Source: Actinomycetota bacterium (GTDB lineage Bacteria; Actinomycetota; Thermoleophilia; Gaiellales; Gaiellaceae). From it: a stretch of DNA of 8,710 bases. Position numbers and translations under genes: made by a program. The stretch covers positions 1 through 8,710 of the forward strand of contig JACCTK010000383.1 in NCBI GenBank assembly GCA_013812465.1, given 5' to 3'. The notes beneath the pieces are model-generated. The model was not told where the DNA came from and did no database searches. It worked only from the letters and a program-made list of their open reading frames with translations. Shown piece by piece: positions 1 through 8,710 of the stretch; positions within the stretch are counted from its first letter, which is position 1; every line of letters starts with the position of its first letter.

Positions 1-603
1 TGCGCCCCGGCGCACGAGCAACGCCGCCTCCAGCCGCTGTTCGCGACGCTCGTGCAGGAGATCGTCGCGCACGCGTACGACCGCACGACTGAAACCGGCC
101 AGCCTCTCGATCCGCCGCTTCTCCTCGTCCTCGACGAGTGCGCCAACATCGCACCGCTTCGCGACCTCGCAACGCTGGCATCGACCGGCGCAGGCCAGGG
201 GATCCAGCTGGTCTCGGTATTTCAGGACATCGCACAGATCAATGCGGTCTATGGAAGAGACCGCGCTCCGACCATCGTCTCGAACCACCGCGCGAAAGTC
301 ATCCTCTCAGGCATCGCCGACCCTCAGACGCTCGAATACGTGGCCCGTCTGCTCGGTGACGAGGAGGTACGCCAGACGTCAGCGACCTCGGGAGCCGAGG
401 GACGACACTCAACGACCGAGTCCGTCGCGTACCGCAACCTCGCGCCGGCGAACGTGCTCCGCGAGATGCGGCCGGGACAGGGCGTTCTCGTCTACGGCCA
501 TCTCGCCCCGGCGCGAATCGCGCTACGGCCGTGGTTCAAGGACCGCCGGCTCCGTCAGCTCGCGAGGCGCCCCGCTCGCCGTGTGGAAGCCGCGCTACCG
601 TGA
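1..603 (+). CDS. TraG/TraD/VirD4-family type IV coupling protein, C-terminal part (5' truncated by window)
   Basis: Frame 1 is open from the first base, so this is the last 200 residues of a longer protein; the GTG at 52 is internal, not a start. Visible are the Walker B-like segment LLLVLDECANIAPL (about residues 40-53 of the fragment, acidic pair D45-E46), the STGAGQGIQLVSVFQDIAQ block (61-79) and NHRAKVILSGIAD (95-107). These are hallmarks of the TraM-recognition/ATPase C-terminal region of TraG/TraD/VirD4 coupling proteins. Such proteins are inner-membrane hexameric ATPases that bring the relaxase-DNA complex to the type IV secretion channel. The Walker A and membrane segments must lie upstream of the window. 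The stop overlaps the next gene's GTG by four bases. A MobF relaxase at the other edge of the window supports a conjugation role. Confidence 0.9.
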   Translation, partial: CAPAHEQRRLQPLFATLVQEIVAHAYDRTTETGQPLDPPLLLVLDECANIAPLRDLATLASTGAGQGIQLVSVFQDIAQINAVYGRDRAPTIVSNHRAKVILSGIADPQTLEYVARLLGDEEVRQTSATSGAEGRHSTTESVAYRNLAPANVLREMRPGQGVLVYGHLAPARIALRPWFKDRRLRQLARRPARRVEAALP

Positions 604-1129: not shown

Positions 1130-1942
1130 CTAAACGCCGTGTTGCCAGCGACAACTTCCGTGCAGCTTGCCGTCGGCACGGAGCTCGAGGTCAACGCAAG
1201 CGATACGCCGGAGATGAGTCGTGATCGCGGTGTGATTCATCAGGAGTGCGCTCAACTCGTCGGCGTGCCTGTCAAGCGTCTCTAGATCTGCCTGCGGCGT
1301 TTCCAAGAACTGGTACAGCAGCACGTAGCCATCGAGGCGTGGCTGCTCGGTCGGTGGGAACGCGCCAGTTGGCATGAACTTGCGGAGTCGCTCGTACTGG
1401 TCTCTCGTGGCCAGATGGACAGCTCCCGCGAGCATCTGGATGAGCGCCGTGAACGGATCCTTGTCACTGCGGATCTTCAGCTCGCCGACGATGGGGGTGC
1501 GATTGTCGGAGCTGACAAGCAGCAGGTCGACCATCATGCCGGAGCGCCACGACCCCCCGTCGTCGTCGAAGTGGGCGCGGTTGGTGGTCCGGGCAGGTCT
1601 GATCTCGTAGTCGAGATACTCGGCGTTCAACCTCGGGGTGTTGCCGACCTCGAGGAGCGCCTGCTCGCGCAAGTACCAGGCGACGTGATGGGTCTTTGTG
1701 ATCTGCCCGATCGGGTCGGGCGCTTTCGGTGCACGATTCTTGTTGCTGTAGAAGCCCTCGGGGTTGCCATAGCGCCGGAAGGCCTCGATACCACTCGTGA
1801 ACTCCGCCACCAGAGGCTGAGGATCGGCGATCAGTTCTCTGGCGAGCACGCTCCGCTGCGCGTAGTTCATCTTGCAAACGCGTTGGTAGTAGCGCTGGAT
1901 CGTCGTGCGCGGAATTGGGTTGCGCTTACTCACACCTCCCAC
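1130..1942 (-). CDS. Putative PD-(D/E)XK-like nuclease-fold protein, function unknown
   Basis: The product is about 267-270 residues and I recognise no named family. The centre reads GMMVDLLLVSSDN then PIVGELKIRSDKDPFTALIQ. This gives a D139...E154-x-K156 pattern on two predicted strands, followed by a helix with Q169. That arrangement is typical of PD-(D/E)XK nuclease cores, and an upstream acid (E108, in LNAEYLDYEIR) could complete the site. The start is ambiguous. GTG at 1942 has an AGGA about 9 nt upstream. GTG at 1933 forms a GTGA overlap with the preceding stop, but its GGAGG lies only 1 nt away. Either way the gene is last in an operon directly after the beta-CASP nuclease gene, so the two are probably co-translated. 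No terminator hairpin is seen in the 26 bp after its stop. The nuclease assignment rests on the motif pattern alone. Confidence 0.75.
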   Translation of the reverse strand: MGGVSKRNPIPRTTIQRYYQRVCKMNYAQRSVLARELIADPQPLVAEFTSGIEAFRRYGNPEGFYSNKNRAPKAPDPIGQITKTHHVAWYLREQALLEVGNTPRLNAEYLDYEIRPARTTNRAHFDDDGGSWRSGMMVDLLLVSSDNRTPIVGELKIRSDKDPFTALIQMLAGAVHLATRDQYERLRKFMPTGAFPPTEQPRLDGYVLLYQFLETPQADLETLDRHADELSALLMNHTAITTHLRRIACVDLELRADGKLHGSCRWQHGV

Positions 1943-3174
1943 CAGACACCATCCTGATGGATCTCGACGTTCGAGAACAGATCGGCGTAGCGCTCCGGTG
2001 CCGCCGTGTGGATCGGCACCACGCGTTGCGCACCGATAGCAGCAGCGAGTGCCTGGAGATCGGCGGCCGCCGCGTGCCCCGAGGCGTGGATCGTTGTGAG
2101 CGGGATTTCGTGATCACCCAGCCACTCACATAGACGGCGGCCTGAAGGGGCGTCGAGGTAGCCTGGCCACATCGACCATACGGCAGCGGCTCCTCTAAGG
2201 CATCGTGCCCGCTCGAGTTCGCGCGTCATGGAACCGCGCATGGTCAACACGAGTCGTGGTCCGAGACTGGCCAACTGCTCGGGGAAGATCCGGTGCGAGC
2301 GGATCGCGTCGATCGCGTCGAACCTCTTCTCCTCGATGATGCGGCGGCGCTGCGCGTGCGGCACGAACACCCTGACGTCCTCCCAAGAAGCCTGGGGGAT
2401 AGTCTTGCGCCTCGTCGCGGCGGCGACGGCCGCGCCGTACAGGTCGAGTACGAGCATGCGGCCGGCGCGCTTCGAGGCGCGGTACACCGACACGAGTCGG
2501 TCAATGTTTTGGCCCGAGTAGCAGACCAGGACGATCCCCTCTGTCTCCCCACACAGCTTGGCTAGCTGGTGCTCGACCTCGCGTTCAGTCGTGTTTTGTT
2601 CCCCCGGGCGGCTGAGCCGAGTGCCTTCCAATACCAGCGCGTGCACGCCCGCGGGTGGCTCGTCAATCAGGCGCCGCCAAGTAGATGGCTTGCGGCCGTG
2701 CGCACGCAAATCCCCGCTATAGAGCAAGCGTCGGCCTCCCGCCTCGACCAGCAGCGCGTAGGCGTCGAACGCGCTGTGATCCACGAGCAGCGGCGTGACG
2801 GTGAACGGTCCAACCGCTAGCTGCTCGCGGTCGCGCATCGGCAGCCACTGGCGTGGCGCCTTGCCGGCGGGCATGAACGGCGCCGCCGCCTGCGATACCC
2901 GTCCCGCCGCCTCACCGCCATAGACGGGAACATCGGACGCGACGACCGCTAACAGCCCTATGTGGTCGGGATGCGTATGGCTGATCACAACGGCAAGGAG
3001 ACCATCCCGGTCGGTTCCAGGGGAAAGCCCCTGCACCGCTGGCAGGATAGGAGGATCGTCGGGGTCGTGCGAGAGCGGCAAGCCGATATCGAGCACGATG
3101 CGCTCGCCGTCGTGTTCGAGTTCGACGCAGCTGCCTCCGATCTCGCGTGCCCCGCGGTGGATCCGTGCGCGCAC
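1930..3174 (-). CDS. RNase J-like metallo-beta-lactamase/beta-CASP family nuclease (short form)
   Basis: The 414-residue product opens with IHRGAREIGGSCVEL, the usual beginning of RNase J-type proteins. It carries the zinc-ligand motif HTHPDH (residues 66-71), motif 3 in VDHSAFDA (H133) and motif 4 in LYSGDLR (D155). The beta-CASP region follows: an acidic residue after the MBL half (VLEGTRLSR, E183), the HASGH motif (363-367) and a C-terminal VVPIHT (H389). All expected metal-binding residues are therefore present and it should be an active hydrolase, by family an RNA endo/5'-exonuclease. At 414 residues it is shorter than housekeeping RNase J (about 550) and ends after the MBL/beta-CASP core, so the C-terminal RNase J domain is missing. 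The GTG start at 3174 lies 3 nt after the upstream stop with no strong ribosome site, implying translational coupling. The natural substrate is unknown. Confidence 0.9.
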   Translation of the reverse strand: MRARIHRGAREIGGSCVELEHDGERIVLDIGLPLSHDPDDPPILPAVQGLSPGTDRDGLLAVVISHTHPDHIGLLAVVASDVPVYGGEAAGRVSQAAAPFMPAGKAPRQWLPMRDREQLAVGPFTVTPLLVDHSAFDAYALLVEAGGRRLLYSGDLRAHGRKPSTWRRLIDEPPAGVHALVLEGTRLSRPGEQNTTEREVEHQLAKLCGETEGIVLVCYSGQNIDRLVSVYRASKRAGRMLVLDLYGAAVAAATRRKTIPQASWEDVRVFVPHAQRRRIIEEKRFDAIDAIRSHRIFPEQLASLGPRLVLTMRGSMTRELERARCLRGAAAVWSMWPGYLDAPSGRRLCEWLGDHEIPLTTIHASGHAAAADLQALAAAIGAQRVVPIHTAAPERYADLFSNVEIHQDGVWWEV

Positions 3175-3729: not shown

Positions 3730-4683
3730 TCAGCTAGCTGCCTCCCAGCGGGCCTGTTTGTCACGCAGTCTCACGGCTTCCTGGAAGAACCGCGGTGCGA
3801 GAGGATGTCGGCTCGCGAGGAGCAGATCGTAGAGTTCGCGCTTGCGCCCGCGCAGGTAGACCGTCACGCCCTCAAGCTTGTCGAAGCCCTCGGCGGCGAG
3901 TCGCCTGCGGTACCAATCGCGCACTGACGCGCCTTTCGTCTCGCTCCCCTCGATCAGCCGAAGCGGTTCAGCATGGCCGAGCATGGCGGCCGCCTTAGCG
4001 TCGTAGCCGGCGGCGAGTGCGCGGACGACGCCGGTTGTTGGGAGGTTGAGCAGAAGATCGAGGTGCGGGTACCGGTCGACAAAGAACTTGACCGTTTCCC
4101 ACCGAAGGTCGAGGCCTTCCTGGTCTCCGTAAAGGACGACGAGCGCGGTCCGCGGGACGAGCTGGGCGATCGTGTCGAGCACCTCAGCCCCGTTCGCATT
4201 GCCGCACAGGACGTGAGCGCGCGAGCTGTGCGCGACGCGGCGTCGTAGCGACTCGGCGCATGCTTCGTTCAGATCAGCGAATACGTAGCCGTCGAACGGC
4301 TTCCGGATCGCCATCGCCTCGAGCGGGGAGCCAGGAACGAAATCGCCGGTCTCGCGGACGTAGAGCTGGCCGGGGCCTGCGAAGAGCTCGATCCACCACA
4401 ACTGCCACTTCCCGCCCATCGCGGTCCCGACGATGTCCGCGTACCGACGAGCGTAGGCCGCTTTCGCGGCCGAGTGAAGGTGGACGGCGCGTGAAAAGAG
4501 CATGTCGTCGTCAGGTACGAGCCCTTTCGTCTCCCGACGCGGCTTCGGCCCGATCTGGAGCGCGAAGGCATCACGATCGAACAGACCGAGCTGTGGCGAC
4601 TTCTCGCGACGCCTGCGGCGTGGCGAAGCCTCGTGTTCGATCACGCGCCGGATGTGCTCGTCGAGGTCGTAGGGCCGGGTCAA
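3730..4683 (-). CDS. Divergent second TcmP-like protein (three-Cys-motif partner paralogue) with clamp-binding-like QLGLF
   Basis: This 317-residue protein shares the TcmP layout of the gene two places upstream. It has a nucleotide/SAM-binding-like IELFAGPGQ (98-106), PGSP (117-120), an acidic second motif VFADLNE (134-140), YGDQEGLDLRWETVKFF (185-201) where TcmP has IDPFGAEEIP, and LLNLPTTGVVRAL (211-223). The fold therefore looks Rossmann methyltransferase-like, though no activity is established for the family. An N-terminal extension of about 60 residues is basic (RRRRREK, 22-28) and followed by QLGLF (31-35), a match to the bacterial sliding-clamp-binding pentapeptide. The only initiator before residue 14 is TTG at 4683, with no Shine-Dalgarno site; GTG at codon 14 (4644) is an alternative and keeps the motif. 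The gene is 60 bp after DUF5131, in the same frame, so re-initiation or readthrough is possible. Confidence 0.8.
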   Translation of the reverse strand: MTRPYDLDEHIRRVIEHEASPRRRRREKSPQLGLFDRDAFALQIGPKPRRETKGLVPDDDMLFSRAVHLHSAAKAAYARRYADIVGTAMGGKWQLWWIELFAGPGQLYVRETGDFVPGSPLEAMAIRKPFDGYVFADLNEACAESLRRRVAHSSRAHVLCGNANGAEVLDTIAQLVPRTALVVLYGDQEGLDLRWETVKFFVDRYPHLDLLLNLPTTGVVRALAAGYDAKAAAMLGHAEPLRLIEGSETKGASVRDWYRRRLAAEGFDKLEGVTVYLRGRKRELYDLLLASRHPLAPRFFQEAVRLRDKQARWEAAS

Positions 4684-4743: not shown

Positions 4744-5604
4744 CTAGCGAGCGAGCGCGAATAGTGACGGGTCAAGGGCTGCGGGGGGCATCTCTCGCCG
4801 CTTGAGCTGCGGCGGGAAGGCATCGAAGTCGCCGCCCTTGCGGTCGCGGATGTTGCGAGCTCGGCCGAGCACGCTTCCGAGCTGCTTCATGAAGAATGGG
4901 ATGGAAACTTGGTCGCACGCTGCTGCGAGTTCGAGCGCCCACGACACGTCGAGCGGTCGTGCGCCTGGGCCACTTTCGCCGCCGACGATCAGCCAATCGA
5001 TGCCATCGAGGTCGAGCGGCGTTCGGCGGCCGGAACTCTCGAAGAGGCTTCCCAGGAGCGGCTCGGCGGAGATGAACCGGACCTCAGCAGGCACGCCGCG
5101 CAGAGCGTCAGCTCGCCACGTGAAACGGCTGTTTTCGATCGAGACACCAAGCCAGACATTCGCCCAGCCTTTGTCCCAGTCGTCAGGAAGACGCCCGGCC
5201 ACGAGCTCGGGGCGCTTCGTCAGGATCTGGTAGGTGAGATGAGGCGTTTGCCGAACGACATCCCATGCCTCGTCGCGCCAAGCATCGGCGCCAGGGTGGA
5301 ACCAGTCCGACCAAGAACAGGTGAAGACGAGCGTCGGCTCGCGCCATCGCAGGGGTTCGAAGAACTTTGTCTTCGAGCGGCGAAGCGCCTCAGGGTCGTG
5401 CCCGTACTGCCGCTGCTCGCGATACATGTAACAGTGGGCGCAGCCTGGACTGACGCGCTCGCAGCCCATCCACGGGTTCCAGGTCGCATCGGTCCACTCG
5501 ATCGCGCTAGCCGCCGCCACCGCACCGCCTCTCGGAGTTGCCCGCGGCTCGTCGGCCGTCGCAAAGCGAGCTTCGAGCAACCTGAGCTGGTTCCTGCCGG
5601 ACAT
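4744..5604 (-). CDS. DUF5131 / phage Gp37-Gp68 family protein (three-Cys-motif protein)
   Basis: The 286-residue product matches the DUF5131 (formerly Gp37_Gp68) family. Seen are IEWTDATWNPWMGC (35-48), the cysteine cluster C48-x6-C55-x2-C58 (with VSPGC and HCY), FTCSWSDWFHPG, YQILTKRP (125-132), FISAEPLLG (177-185), WLIVGGESGP (204-213) and FFMKQLG (237-243). The clustered cysteines resemble an iron-sulphur or radical-SAM-like site, but the family has no established reaction. Members are commonly found beside TcmP genes, as here on both sides. The start is uncertain. ATG at 5604 abuts a LexA-type palindrome and has no Shine-Dalgarno site. GTG at 5520 has GAGAGG (5533-5528) 7 nt upstream and would place the conserved IEWTDATWNP block near the N-terminus, with an 85-nt leader after the operator. 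The 28 extra residues have coding-like GC at third positions, so I keep the long form. Confidence 0.88.
   Translation of the reverse strand: MSGRNQLRLLEARFATADEPRATPRGGAVAAASAIEWTDATWNPWMGCERVSPGCAHCYMYREQRQYGHDPEALRRSKTKFFEPLRWREPTLVFTCSWSDWFHPGADAWRDEAWDVVRQTPHLTYQILTKRPELVAGRLPDDWDKGWANVWLGVSIENSRFTWRADALRGVPAEVRFISAEPLLGSLFESSGRRTPLDLDGIDWLIVGGESGPGARPLDVSWALELAAACDQVSIPFFMKQLGSVLGRARNIRDRKGGDFDAFPPQLKRREMPPAALDPSLFALAR
5518..5533 (-). promoter_or_regulatory. Ribosome binding site supporting an alternative DUF5131 start
   Basis: Reading the - strand, GAGAGG (5533-5528) is followed by a 7-nt spacer and an in-frame GTG (5520-5518). This is a better initiation context than the upstream ATG at 5604, which has no recognisable Shine-Dalgarno sequence. 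Use of this start would remove residues 1-28 and leave the conserved family core intact. Confidence 0.4.
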
Positions 5605-5618
5605 CGAACATATGTTCG
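5605..5618 (-). promoter_or_regulatory. LexA-type SOS box (CGAACATATGTTCG) upstream of DUF5131
   Basis: CGAACATATGTTCG is a perfect 14-bp palindrome. It fits the SOS box CGAACNNNNGTTCG recognised by LexA in actinobacteria and Bacillus, and has the expected AT-rich centre. Including the next base on the gene side, the + strand reads TCGAACATATGTTCGC, close to the extended mycobacterial form. It lies in the 39-bp gap between the tcmP stop (5644) and the DUF5131 ATG (5604), directly touching that ATG. Looking for GAAC-N4-GTTC elsewhere in the window by eye, I found no second copy. The TATGTT inside it also fits a TANNNT -10 element, so LexA binding would block a promoter for DUF5131 and the second TcmP-like gene. 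LexA itself is not encoded here. Confidence 0.8.
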
Positions 5619-5643
5619 CACGAGGCGCGGACGACTCTTCCGG

Positions 5644-6774
5644 TCACGGGGACTCGTGCCACCAGATGAAGCGCATCCGTGTGCCGGGCGTAAACGAGCC
5701 AGCCCGCTTCCCCGCAGGTCTTCGAACCTCGATCGCACCCGCTGCCTCAGCCGTCTTGAGCCTCGGCTTGAGGTGGCCGTTGTCACGGAAGGCCGTCTCG
5801 AGCAGCGTGAACTGCTCTGCCTGCTCGATCGTGAACCACCGGGCGCCGAACCTCTCGTGCAGCATGTCCTGCAGCCGGCCAAGATCGGCTTCCTGCTCGA
5901 AGAGGACAGGATGATCGGCGAGCGTTGAGTCTCGGAACGCTTGTCCGGTCTCCGGATCGACCTGCCACATCGCGTCCTTCATCCGACGCAGCCCCATCTT
6001 CGAACCGGTACAGAAGAAGAGGTAGTAGGTGTTGCCGCCGACCTCGGCCGCCGGGGTGATCTCGAACGAGCGCACGCAAGGGACGTGCCGCTGGAGCTCG
6101 GCGAGGAAGAGGTCGTGGAGAATGCGCTTCTTCGTCTCGAAGTCGGGCGCGGCGAGCGCCTTCTTCCACTCCTGGCCGCCGTAGAGGCCGTCAAGGATCG
6201 GCTTGAATTCTGGACCCTCTGCGAAGCGGGCGAGGAACCCGACCGGGAAGTAGACCAGCTCTTCGCAGCGAGGGATCCGGAGAAGCGGCGTCGACAGCGC
6301 GGCGGGGATCTCTTCTGCGCCGAACGGATCAATGAACGCGAACGTCGGCGGCAGCTGCCCGAACTGCGTCCTGAGCCGCTCGATCAGGACAGGAAACTCG
6401 TCAACAAACGAACCCTCGAGGATCTCGACCTCCACCTTCGACGGAAGCGTCAGCGCCGCGACCTCGCGGCGCAAGTGCTCGCAACGCTCGCCGTGCTCCT
6501 CGATGAAGAAGAAGTGAGCGGCGGCGTCGAGCGTCGCAGAGTGATCGAGATATGCCTTGATCATGATCAACGGCGAACCTGGCTCGCCGCCCGAGTAGCG
6601 GCCGGGACCGGCGAAGCCGTCGATGAGGACAACGTGTTCGTGCGCATGACGCCCTGCGCCGAGGATGGGAAGCCAAGCGTCGAGATACTTCCGCAGGATC
6701 GTGTGCTTCGCCTGCGTCGGGCGCGTCATCGGCCAGACGGTGTCTTTCTTCGCCACGGTGTCTGCCTGTGTCAA
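5644..6774 (-). CDS. tcmP: Three-Cys-motif partner protein TcmP
   Basis: The 376-residue product fits the TcmP family (TIGR04474-type). It has KHTILRKYLDAWLPIL (23-38), VLIDGFAGPGRYSGGEPGSP (49-68), an acidic FFIEEH segment (89-94), FAFIDPFGAEEIP (145-157) and ELVYFPVGFLARF (172-184). A winged-helix-like C-terminus (about 305-372) ends in a GSFTPGTRMRFIW strand. The GFAGPG and IDPFG motifs suggest a Rossmann methyltransferase-like fold, but the biochemical role of the family is not established. It is known as the neighbour of DUF5131 proteins, which follow here after 39 bp. The start is TTG at 6774, supported by GGAG with a 7-nt spacer; a later in-frame ATG at residue 16 is less likely because the conserved upstream tryptophan would be lost. 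It begins 17 bp after the relaxase stop, so it can be transcribed with the relaxase gene. Confidence 0.9.
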   Translation of the reverse strand: MTQADTVAKKDTVWPMTRPTQAKHTILRKYLDAWLPILGAGRHAHEHVVLIDGFAGPGRYSGGEPGSPLIMIKAYLDHSATLDAAAHFFFIEEHGERCEHLRREVAALTLPSKVEVEILEGSFVDEFPVLIERLRTQFGQLPPTFAFIDPFGAEEIPAALSTPLLRIPRCEELVYFPVGFLARFAEGPEFKPILDGLYGGQEWKKALAAPDFETKKRILHDLFLAELQRHVPCVRSFEITPAAEVGGNTYYLFFCTGSKMGLRRMKDAMWQVDPETGQAFRDSTLADHPVLFEQEADLGRLQDMLHERFGARWFTIEQAEQFTLLETAFRDNGHLKPRLKTAEAAGAIEVRRPAGKRAGSFTPGTRMRFIWWHESP

Positions 6775-6791: not shown

Positions 6792-8710
6792 CTACCGCTC
6801 GAGAGTGAGCCTGAGTCCCTCGCGGGTTCCGCCGGCGCGCTCGACTTCCTGTGCGCGGTCCTTTGGCGCCCGATCAGCCCGCTTCAACTCAAGCTTTGCC
6901 TTCTCAAGCACAGCCACGCTCTCGACGAGCCGCTCGCTGACAAGTTCGATCGAATGACGTTGCAGCTCGATTTCCCCACGGAGTTCATCACGGCGGCGCC
7001 GTCGCAGCGCGCCACACCTCGCCAGTTCGCGTTCGGCGACGCCGAGCTTTCCCTCAGCCCTTTCCTGCGTCTTCGTGAGTACGCGGCGCTTCTGCTCGAG
7101 GAGCCGAAGGTGCAACTGGTCATCCGGTCTAGCCGCCGGGCGCTCGATCTCTGGCCGCGCGGCATGCCTCGGTCCGGACGGGAGCGGTCGCTGGTCGACC
7201 GCGAGCCGCTCGACTGCTGACTCCTCAAGTGCTCGGCCGAAACGGGCGAGTGGGTCACGGTCGTCGAGGTTGTGGAAATGGCTCTCGTGCTCGCGCGGGT
7301 TGCCGGTCACGTAGAGACGGGTCTGCGCTCGCGCGCGCGAGAGGGCGACGTAACCCCACTCCTGCAGCCGCGCCTCTCCGGCTCCAAGGACGAAGGCGCG
7401 CTCCACCGTAAGGCCCTGGGCGGCGTGGCCGGTGAGGGCGTACGCGTGGCGGACGTTGCCCGTCTCCAGGTAGCGGCGGCTGAGCTCGACGCTCGGACCG
7501 CGATCGGTTGAGACGGTGAGCGTCCGCTGGTTGAGGTCGACTCGCTCGACTGTTGCACAGGTGCCGTTCTTGACGTCGAGGACGTCGGAGTTGCGTAGGC
7601 AGACGACGCGGTCGCCACTGGCGAACTCGCGGCCTGAGACGGTGAGCCGCGCCTTGCCGAGACGGCAATCGGCATCCATGAGCGAGCGGGCGAGCTGGTT
7701 GAGGTCGGCGACGTCACGCCGGTGGAGTGCGAGCATGACGTTGCCGGCGAGATCGTCACGGGCGTGCTCCCACCAATCGATGAGCAGGCGGGCTCGCGTC
7801 GTGACAGGGCTCTCGGAGACGACGAGCCGCTCGCGCTTCTCGGCGTAGGCGAGGTAGTCGCGGCCTACACCACCGCGGACGCGAGCAAGGGCTTCCCGCT
7901 CGAGCTCATCGCGCTGGCGGCGGTTCTCCTTCAAGACAACGGCGCCTTCGCGCTCGACGACGCCGGCGAAGAGCCCTCCGGCGCCGACGGCGGGGAGCTG
8001 GTGCGGGTCACCGATCAGGATCGCCTTGCCGTGCGCCTGCTCGACGAGCTCGAGCACGGGTGCGAGGATGCGCGTCTCGGCCATGCCGGCCTCGTCGACG
8101 ACGAGCACGCACCCGTGCGGCAGGCCGCCGTCGCGCCGCGCCTCTTCGAGCACGCGGTGGAGCGTGGCGGAGCGGATGCCGGTCTCGTCCTGGAGCTTCT
8201 CCGCGGCGACGCCCGACGGCGCGGCGCCGAGGACGTGAATGCCGGCGTGTGCGAAGACCTGGCCAACGGCGTGGGTGGCGGTCGTCTTGCCTGCGCCCGC
8301 GAGGCCGACGACACAGACGACGCGGCTCGGGCTGGTCGCGACCTCGCGCACCATCGCCTCCTGCTCGTCGGAGAGGGCGATCCTGTCGGCACGCTCGATT
8401 TCGGTCAGACGCTGTTCGGGGATCGACGGAGCTCCGGCGTCGCGGCCGCGTTCCACGAGCGCGAGTGCAGCCTGTTCGATAGCAACGAGCTCGGCCGTCG
8501 AATAGCGGGTCGGACGGCCCGGTGACGGCGCCTCGCCGACGCGCTCGACGCCATCGGTCTGCGTGAGCCGTGCGGCGAGCTGTCGAACTCGGTCAGCGGA
8601 CACGCCAGCCGCGTGTGCTTCCGACCACGCCATGACGACGTCGGGATCGGAGAATGCGGTCCGCTTCTCGGTCAGTCCCTCTGGCCCGAGCATGCGCCGG
8701 GCGATCCGAA
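6792..8710 (-). CDS. MobF (TrwC/TraI-like) relaxase-helicase, C-terminal helicase part (5' truncated by window)
   Basis: The frame stays open through the right edge (codons before the ATG at 8693 read RIARR), so this is the C-terminal part of a larger protein; about 639 residues are visible. Numbering from the ATG at 8693, the superfamily 1 helicase motifs are Walker A GLAGAGKTT (130-138), Walker B VLVVDEAGM (196-204), LIGDPHQLPAVGAGG (226-240), ENRRQ (256-260), TGHAAQGLTVERAFV (421-435) and YVALSRAR (448-455). This RecD/TraI-like 5'-3' helicase would unwind plasmid DNA during transfer. The C-terminal 100 residues (about 526-610) are charged and heptad-like, suggesting a coiled coil. The N-terminal HUH relaxase domain with catalytic tyrosine(s) should lie outside the window. 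The only protein expected to show this helicase set with an adjoining coupling protein is a conjugative relaxase, though the relaxase domain itself is not seen. Confidence 0.88.
   Translation of the reverse strand, partial: RIARRMLGPEGLTEKRTAFSDPDVVMAWSEAHAAGVSADRVRQLAARLTQTDGVERVGEAPSPGRPTRYSTAELVAIEQAALALVERGRDAGAPSIPEQRLTEIERADRIALSDEQEAMVREVATSPSRVVCVVGLAGAGKTTATHAVGQVFAHAGIHVLGAAPSGVAAEKLQDETGIRSATLHRVLEEARRDGGLPHGCVLVVDEAGMAETRILAPVLELVEQAHGKAILIGDPHQLPAVGAGGLFAGVVEREGAVVLKENRRQRDELEREALARVRGGVGRDYLAYAEKRERLVVSESPVTTRARLLIDWWEHARDDLAGNVMLALHRRDVADLNQLARSLMDADCRLGKARLTVSGREFASGDRVVCLRNSDVLDVKNGTCATVERVDLNQRTLTVSTDRGPSVELSRRYLETGNVRHAYALTGHAAQGLTVERAFVLGAGEARLQEWGYVALSRARAQTRLYVTGNPREHESHFHNLDDRDPLARFGRALEESAVERLAVDQRPLPSGPRHAARPEIERPAARPDDQLHLRLLEQKRRVLTKTQERAEGKLGVAERELARCGALRRRRRDELRGEIELQRHSIELVSERLVESVAVLEKAKLELKRADRAPKDRAQEVERAGGTREGLRLTLER

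Follow-up and report, generated by a model that had tools for sequence, protein, structure and literature searches.

We found a perfect 14-bp palindrome, CGAACATATGTTCG, directly in front of a DUF5131 gene in a stretch of 8,710 nucleotides of actinobacterial DNA (hereafter, the window). This palindrome is very likely a LexA operator overlying the DUF5131 promoter, so that DNA damage would induce DUF5131 and probably also the second TcmP gene downstream, and the two products would most likely form a nucleic-acid repair or modification pair. What can be read from the DNA is the site itself, its match to the lexA promoters of the probable host class, its recurrence at other loci despite unconserved flanks and the exchange of the switch for others across lineages.

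RESULTS

Gene content of the window

The predicted features are collected in Table 1. The PF07505 score of the DUF5131 protein (227.5 bits) lay far above the curated cut-off of 28.9 bits, and both TcmP proteins exceeded the TIGR04474 cut-off of 53 bits, the first of them with 168.3 bits. The second TcmP gene lies 60 bp downstream of DUF5131 on the same strand and, by co-transcription, would probably share a LexA-controlled transcript with it. The first TcmP gene (5644-6774) lies upstream of the box and is outside its control. For two close relatives of the DUF5131 protein (identities of 88% and 70%) the source is named; they came from an Actinomycetota and a Gaiellaceae MAG, which makes Thermoleophilia the probable class of the host. 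Judging from its genes, the window appears to be a segment of a mobile element, and the RNase J-like gene is possibly an extra member of the element's cargo.

Table 1. Predicted features of the window in order of position
Feature	Positions	Strand	Basis
TraG/VirD4-type coupling protein, C-terminal part, cut by window start	1..603	+	PF12696, PF02534
RNase J-like metallo-beta-lactamase gene, after the module on the same strand	1930..3174	-	
Second TcmP-family gene	3730..4683	-	TIGR04474 83.1 bits (cut-off 53); PDC-M41A
DUF5131 gene, 286 aa from ATG 5604	4744..5604	-	PF07505 227.5 bits; PADLOC PDC-M41B, PDC-M30B
LexA (SOS) box CGAACATATGTTCG, predicted	5605..5618	.	Matrix score; identical 14-mers elsewhere
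Possible -10 element TATGTT (TANNNT) inside the box	5607..5612	-	Inferred from reading the sequence
First TcmP gene, RlmJ-like methyltransferase fold with C-terminal winged helix (model)	5644..6774	-	
Helicase part of TraA/TrwC-type conjugative relaxase, cut by window end	6792..8708	-	TIGR02768 286 bits (cut-off 590); PF13604

A predicted LexA box adjoins the DUF5131 gene

A first-pass annotation of this DNA had placed a palindrome between tcmP and the DUF5131 gene, at 5604 to 5619. We confirmed the palindrome; those bounds take in one extra base on either side. A gap of 25 bp (5619-5643) separates it from the tcmP stop, where that gene ends at 5644, and on its other side it directly adjoins ATG 5604 of the longest DUF5131 open reading frame. 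No Shine-Dalgarno sequence precedes this ATG, since the position where one would stand is taken up by the palindrome. An alternative start, GTG 5520, is preceded 7 nt upstream by GAGAGG (5528-5533) and may be the true start of DUF5131; relatives in the database begin at either type of start. The palindrome would thus stand either at the start of the gene or 84 bp before it, as is appropriate for an operator at the promoter of the controlled gene. The candidate -10 element sits within the box, so that LexA bound there would cover the promoter. A promoter scan of the locus returned no sigma-70 consensus promoter, and no terminator-like site was detected between positions 4600 and 5800.

No second match to CGAACATATGTTCG with up to 3 mismatches was found anywhere in the window. 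In 200 dinucleotide shuffles of the window we obtained a mean of 0.24 such matches, with at least one in 43 of the shuffles, and base composition arithmetic gave an expectation of about 1e-5 perfect matches per window.

The box agrees with lexA promoters of the probable host class

As a stand-in for the class of the host we used Thermoleophilia, the class of a Thermoleophilaceae genome (locus L068 of genome G001). A search of 149 genomes of the class recovered lexA in 141, and all 30 lexA loci examined carried GAACN4GTTC within 300 bp upstream; at one of them (L152), the exact 14-mer of the window stands 36 bp before the lexA match. The first-pass annotation had likened the palindrome to the actinobacterial/Bacillus LexA box and had considered that the host LexA might recognize a different motif. 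The likeness was borne out, since the same type of box is used by the lexA promoters of the probable host class without exception among those 30. The site resembles CGAACN4GTTCG, the LexA box shared by B. subtilis and S. aureus (PMC9578287, Table 1), in sequence, in palindromy and in its place just upstream of a gene; the difference is that the DUF5131-TcmP family is not named in the portions of the published regulon descriptions consulted. Upstream of recA, the GAACN4GTTC box was present in only 5 of 30 genes of the class (L170-L199), and recA in Thermoleophilia thus appears to be mostly outside the control of this motif.

We then scored the window with a LexA matrix. Its training set comprised 16 sites close to Thermoleophilia lexA genes, 15 of them from plus-strand lexA loci and the remaining one, the lowest-scoring (L162), not upstream of its lexA. 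The palindrome reached 24.5 bits, within the range of the training sites (13.4-25.8 bits), and every other position of the window scored below 13 bits.

The box recurs before DUF5131 genes in Thermoleophilia

Of 399 Thermoleophilia genomes, 53 contained DUF5131, and 40 loci were sampled after exclusion of weak or partial matches. In 12 of these 40 other loci, a box scoring 18.5 bits or more lay 42 to 121 bp ahead of the conserved core, compared to an expected 0.16, a value derived from 7 sites of at least 13 bits in 449,561 positions outside -250 to 0 in the same loci and the window. In five of the 12 (L204, L206, L207, L213 and L218), the 14-mer was identical to that of the window. The first-pass annotation had held that the palindrome was unlikely to be there by chance and had made this claim depend on enrichment of LexA boxes upstream of DUF5131; this recurrence in the same place supports it.

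The DUF5131 cores of the 12 box loci are 66 to 82% identical among themselves, and the 40-bp flanks of their boxes average only 0.29 to 0.33 identity (0.28 to 0.33 over all box flanks). The free inner positions of the boxes are also biased, the fixed letters being conserved by construction. All 12 box loci have a TcmP neighbor; among Thermoleophilia loci with an adjacent TcmP, the frequency is 12/23, versus the 5/30 recorded for recA in this class. L201, the nearest relative located in a genome (64% identical in a partial alignment), has no box, and no TcmP was seen within its 14 kb; the G001 locus (L127), which was outside the sample of 40, was not among the 45 best-scoring rows of the matrix scan. 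The loci compared lie outside the window's own clade, the closest relatives with 80 to 89% identity, and common descent within each group keeps the counts from being fully independent.

The type of switch matches the host in other groups

DUF5131 was also found in 46 of 337 Alphaproteobacteria genomes, 24 of 296 Actinomycetes genomes, 28 of 303 Gammaproteobacteria genomes and 58 of 299 genomes of the phylum of a Desulforudis genome (hereafter, the Desulforudis phylum). From each of these groups we took about 30 best-scoring loci, minus duplicates and loci without a DUF5131 frame. Together with 39 Thermoleophilia loci (L225, whose sequence begins only at the core, with nothing upstream, was excluded), this gave a motif-by-group matrix of 157 DUF5131 loci. 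Eleven permuted versions of each motif served as controls, with means of 0 to 0.45 and a maximum of 3 in any cell.

GAACN4GTTC was observed in 12/39 loci of Thermoleophilia, 8/31 of the Desulforudis phylum (permuted average, 0.09) and 3/30 of Actinomycetes, and in none of 30 Alphaproteobacteria and 27 Gammaproteobacteria loci. The alphaproteobacterial type GTTCN7GTTC, known as the Caulobacter SOS box (PMC9578287, Table 1), showed the reverse distribution: it stands before DUF5131 or its operon in 13/30 Alphaproteobacteria loci (permuted average, 0.27), versus 0/39 in Thermoleophilia, 0/31 in the Desulforudis phylum and 0/30 in Actinomycetes. This box belongs to another LexA motif class and is a parallel to the window site. 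Two of 27 Gammaproteobacteria loci also carried it (controls averaged 0.45, with a maximum of 1). The E. coli-type box was present in a single Gammaproteobacteria locus (L307, 1/27) and in no other group; the lexA locus of that same genome has no E. coli-type box, and we rejected the Gammaproteobacteria as support. A recognized host-type box was absent from 120 of the 157 loci.

Some of the LexA patterns tested had been selected from known motifs, and a de novo dyad enumeration, in which pairs of 4-mers were counted with no motif assumed, agreed with them. The top dyads of Thermoleophilia (AACAN3GTTC, 10/39; ACATN2GTTC, 10/39; GAACN4GTTC, 12/39) belong to GAACATNNGTTC, and those of Alphaproteobacteria (GTTCN6TGTT, 8/30; GTTCN7GTTC, 9/30) to GTTCN7GTTC. 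Moreover, the motif of the box was also present in the lexA promoters of the same genomes: in all 12 Thermoleophilia box genomes (for one, G127, by coordinates) and at 10 of 10 lexA loci recovered from the 13 Alphaproteobacteria box genomes, two of which yielded no locus while one lacked a lexA match. For the Desulforudis phylum, the match was strict in 3/8 genomes and near in 4/8, with neither in 1/8.

The first-pass annotation had proposed scanning such loci across actinobacteria. Enrichment held for Thermoleophilia and was weak in Actinomycetes, where permuted controls gave 0 and the three boxes lie further upstream, at -145 to -165. Separately, the dyads CGGAN4AGCG and TGGCN7AGCG were enriched before DUF5131 in Actinomycetes (L276-L304), as was TTGCN6TAAT in the Desulforudis phylum (L334-L362); these match no recognized switch.

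Relatives of DUF5131 are encoded by 400 of 72,556 plasmid records. We examined 8 plasmid regions, chosen from 25 of the 400 records, and observed a damage switch on four of them: the alphaproteobacterial type on plasmids of Sphingomonas sp. NIC1 and Agrobacterium Q15/94, GAACN4GTTC on that of Rhodococcus sp. USK13 and, with 1 mismatch, the mycobacterial P1 promoter (see below) on that of Mycolicibacterium chubuense. The other four regions, from R. leguminosarum, Phenylobacterium, Bartonella and R. ruber plasmids, contained no damage switch. On a viral contig (L037), too, DUF5131 was seen with a LexA-type box, CCGAACGCGTGTTCGA, located 47 bp ahead of the core.

The box stands before DUF5131 or the first gene of its operon

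The layout of the TcmP neighbor varies among the Thermoleophilia box loci. TcmP is downstream on the same strand in L203, L204, L208, L218 and L220, upstream of DUF5131 as in the window in L207 and L219, tail-to-tail with it in L206, L211 and L216, and divergent from it in L205. In L213 (the same gene as L124), DUF5131 and TcmP are fused in a single open frame of about 1,899 nt, an arrangement that points to joint action of the two proteins; this fusion, in genome G127, lies about 5 kb from the lexA of that genome. Scanning of the tail-to-tail loci located the box at DUF5131 and none before TcmP. Where TcmP leads the operon, as in L334, L336, L346, L349 and L352 of the Desulforudis phylum, the box precedes TcmP. 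From the tail-to-tail and TcmP-first layouts, the switch therefore follows DUF5131 or the leading gene of the operon.

Over all groups, a host-type box was found in 36 of 101 loci with an adjacent TcmP, compared to 1 of 56 loci without one (Fisher P = 2.6e-7, relatedness ignored). Thus, 36 of the 37 box loci have an adjacent TcmP, and 65 of the 101 TcmP-adjacent loci have no host-type box.

Matches to a LexA-independent damage promoter precede most mycobacterial DUF5131 genes

Of 69 genomes from a single mycobacterial genus, 13 had TcmP (TIGR04474), and DUF5131 adjoins TcmP in 14 of the 15 loci (L363-L377). Read from the coordinates, 12 of these pairs are convergent and two are divergent (L369 and L377). 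Mycobacteria have a damage promoter, P1, with the consensus tTGTCRgtg-8-TAnnnT, that is independent of LexA and RecA (PMC5656591). With up to 2 mismatches allowed, we found matches to P1 upstream of 9 of 14 mycobacterial DUF5131 genes, one match being exact; the controls gave 0.13 (shuffled) and 1 (reverse strand). The species are related, and the nine matches are not nine independent events. P1 is a damage promoter in the same position before DUF5131, acting without LexA, whereas the window site is of LexA type. In one locus (L373) without P1, a LexA box stands some 55 bp ahead of the core instead. The upstream regions of the TcmP genes themselves matched neither P1 (0/15 loci) nor a LexA box.

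No recA gene was seen in the 15 loci. In M. tuberculosis, recA is among the most up-regulated mitomycin-responsive genes, and Rv2734, Rv2735c, recX and recA form one mitomycin-responsive cluster, the direction for each gene not being stated in the part of the source consulted (PMC5057432). Rv2735c is cotranscribed with recA-recX (PMC3062782). In BCG, recX carries the number BCG_2749c, and a three-Cys-motif partner domain is present in BCG_2748c (PMC7387457). BCG_2748c being numbered next to recX and having this domain, Rv2735c is very probably a TcmP gene. Rv2734 is presumably the DUF5131 gene, as the layout suggests.

Protein families and likely biochemistry

The predicted structure of TcmP has the fold of RlmJ-type methyltransferases, RlmJ being a 23S rRNA adenine-N6 methyltransferase. 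Unlike RlmJ, TcmP has an additional C-terminal GMT-wHTH domain (29 of 32 relatives) and the motif DPFG, and the two align with 15% identity. By sequence, TcmP does not fall within the RlmJ family: besides GMT-wHTH, the best Pfam E value among the 32 relatives was 0.015.

In DUF5131, the cysteines C48-x6-C55-x2-C58 are invariant among 24 relatives. The usual cluster motif of radical SAM enzymes is C-x3-C-x2-C, and it is absent from those 24 proteins. DUF5131 itself was the sole Pfam match at 1e-3, with no radical SAM family matched. There was a weak but consistent likeness to radical SAM mobile pair protein A (TIGR04471), seen in 24 of 24 members, with 63.8 bits, far under the family cut-off of 355 bits. 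The predicted structure of DUF5131 was poor (pLDDT 60), and Foldseek returned nothing at 0.001 with this model; SuiB and a viperin-like enzyme turned up alongside many other barrels, which proves no kinship. Sequence searches yielded no relative of solved structure for either DUF5131 or TcmP. DUF5131 is thus possibly a radical-SAM-like enzyme with a C-x6-C-x2-C motif. LexA of S. venezuelae targets vnz_31145, a radical SAM protein induced by damage that has been likened to thymine cross-link repair enzymes (PMC9380542); its likeness to DUF5131 is one of description only.

Close relatives of DUF5131 carry QLRLLE or QLSLLE near the start (residues 1-10, window 5575-5604), and the second TcmP protein has QLGLFD at about residue 31. 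We take these to resemble the sliding-clamp-binding motif. N-terminal QLxL[LF] was present in 8 of 26 extensions of close DUF5131 relatives (shuffled, 0.01) and in none of the N-termini tested from five wider groups; it may be a feature of the clade or may be untranslated.

DUF5131 and both TcmP proteins matched no named, tested anti-phage system, the only hits being the PADLOC candidates PDC-M30 and PDC-M41, which come without description. Some loci of these candidate defense types may be damage inducible.

DISCUSSION

We propose that, in the undamaged cell, LexA sits on the palindrome and would block transcription of DUF5131. DNA damage, or single-stranded DNA such as enters during conjugation, would activate RecA; active RecA would promote self-cleavage of LexA, and DUF5131 would be made, probably together with the second TcmP protein encoded downstream. 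Binding of LexA, induction, cotranscription with the second TcmP gene and the biochemical role are what we infer from the sites and their distribution, the most likely role being that of a damage-induced nucleic-acid repair or modification pair.

The palindrome is one site in one window, and degenerate matches turned up in 43 of the 200 shuffles; the presence of the box in the same place at 12 of 40 other loci, against 0.16 expected, nevertheless makes a functionless palindrome extremely improbable. The site might instead be the operator of another repressor that resembles a LexA box, for instance one encoded by the element itself, and it is general knowledge that element repressors can have similar palindromes. 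We consider this quite unlikely, since the type of site changes with the LexA type of the host across groups and equals that of the same-genome lexA promoters in Thermoleophilia and Alphaproteobacteria, and since P1 takes the place of the box in most mycobacterial loci.

A more serious question is what a genuine operator would serve. SOS control may benefit the mobile element, in establishment after conjugation, in transfer or in anti-phage defense, rather than DNA repair in the cell. The DUF5131-TcmP pair is often found on mobile elements; there are conjugation genes in the window, DUF5131 and TcmP match the PADLOC candidates PDC-M30 and PDC-M41, DUF5131 relatives are present in those 400 plasmid records, and the phage protein family phrog_2045 takes in DUF5131. 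Set against this are the M. tuberculosis recA-recX operon, to which a very probable TcmP gene belongs (PMC3062782; PMC7387457), and the DUF5131-TcmP fusion of G127, which stands near lexA, beside a DNA damage gene. We hold service to the element to be a possible but doubtful explanation and retain a damage-induced repair or modification pair as the preferred reading.

LexA control is known in itself; recognition of the DUF5131-TcmP family as a damage-response module appears to be absent from the literature searched. Our literature search returned no paper naming DUF5131, and the accessible portions of the literature on the three-Cys-motif partner are silent on SOS control of the pair. At least three switches can be named at these loci from sequence comparison, namely, the Gram-positive-type LexA box, the alphaproteobacterial LexA box and mycobacterial P1. 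We lean, with some reserve, toward the view that DUF5131 and TcmP form a previously unrecognized, widespread DNA damage response module, kept by selection under the switch of the host in several phyla, and a new nucleic-acid repair or modification pair. The families DUF5131 (also annotated as phage Gp37/Gp68) and TcmP are common, have no known role and occur on plasmids and viral contigs as well as on chromosomes. Their recurrent damage control in different phyla makes of this "unknown function" a testable claim, and candidate anti-phage loci and conjugative elements would thereby be joined to the SOS response.
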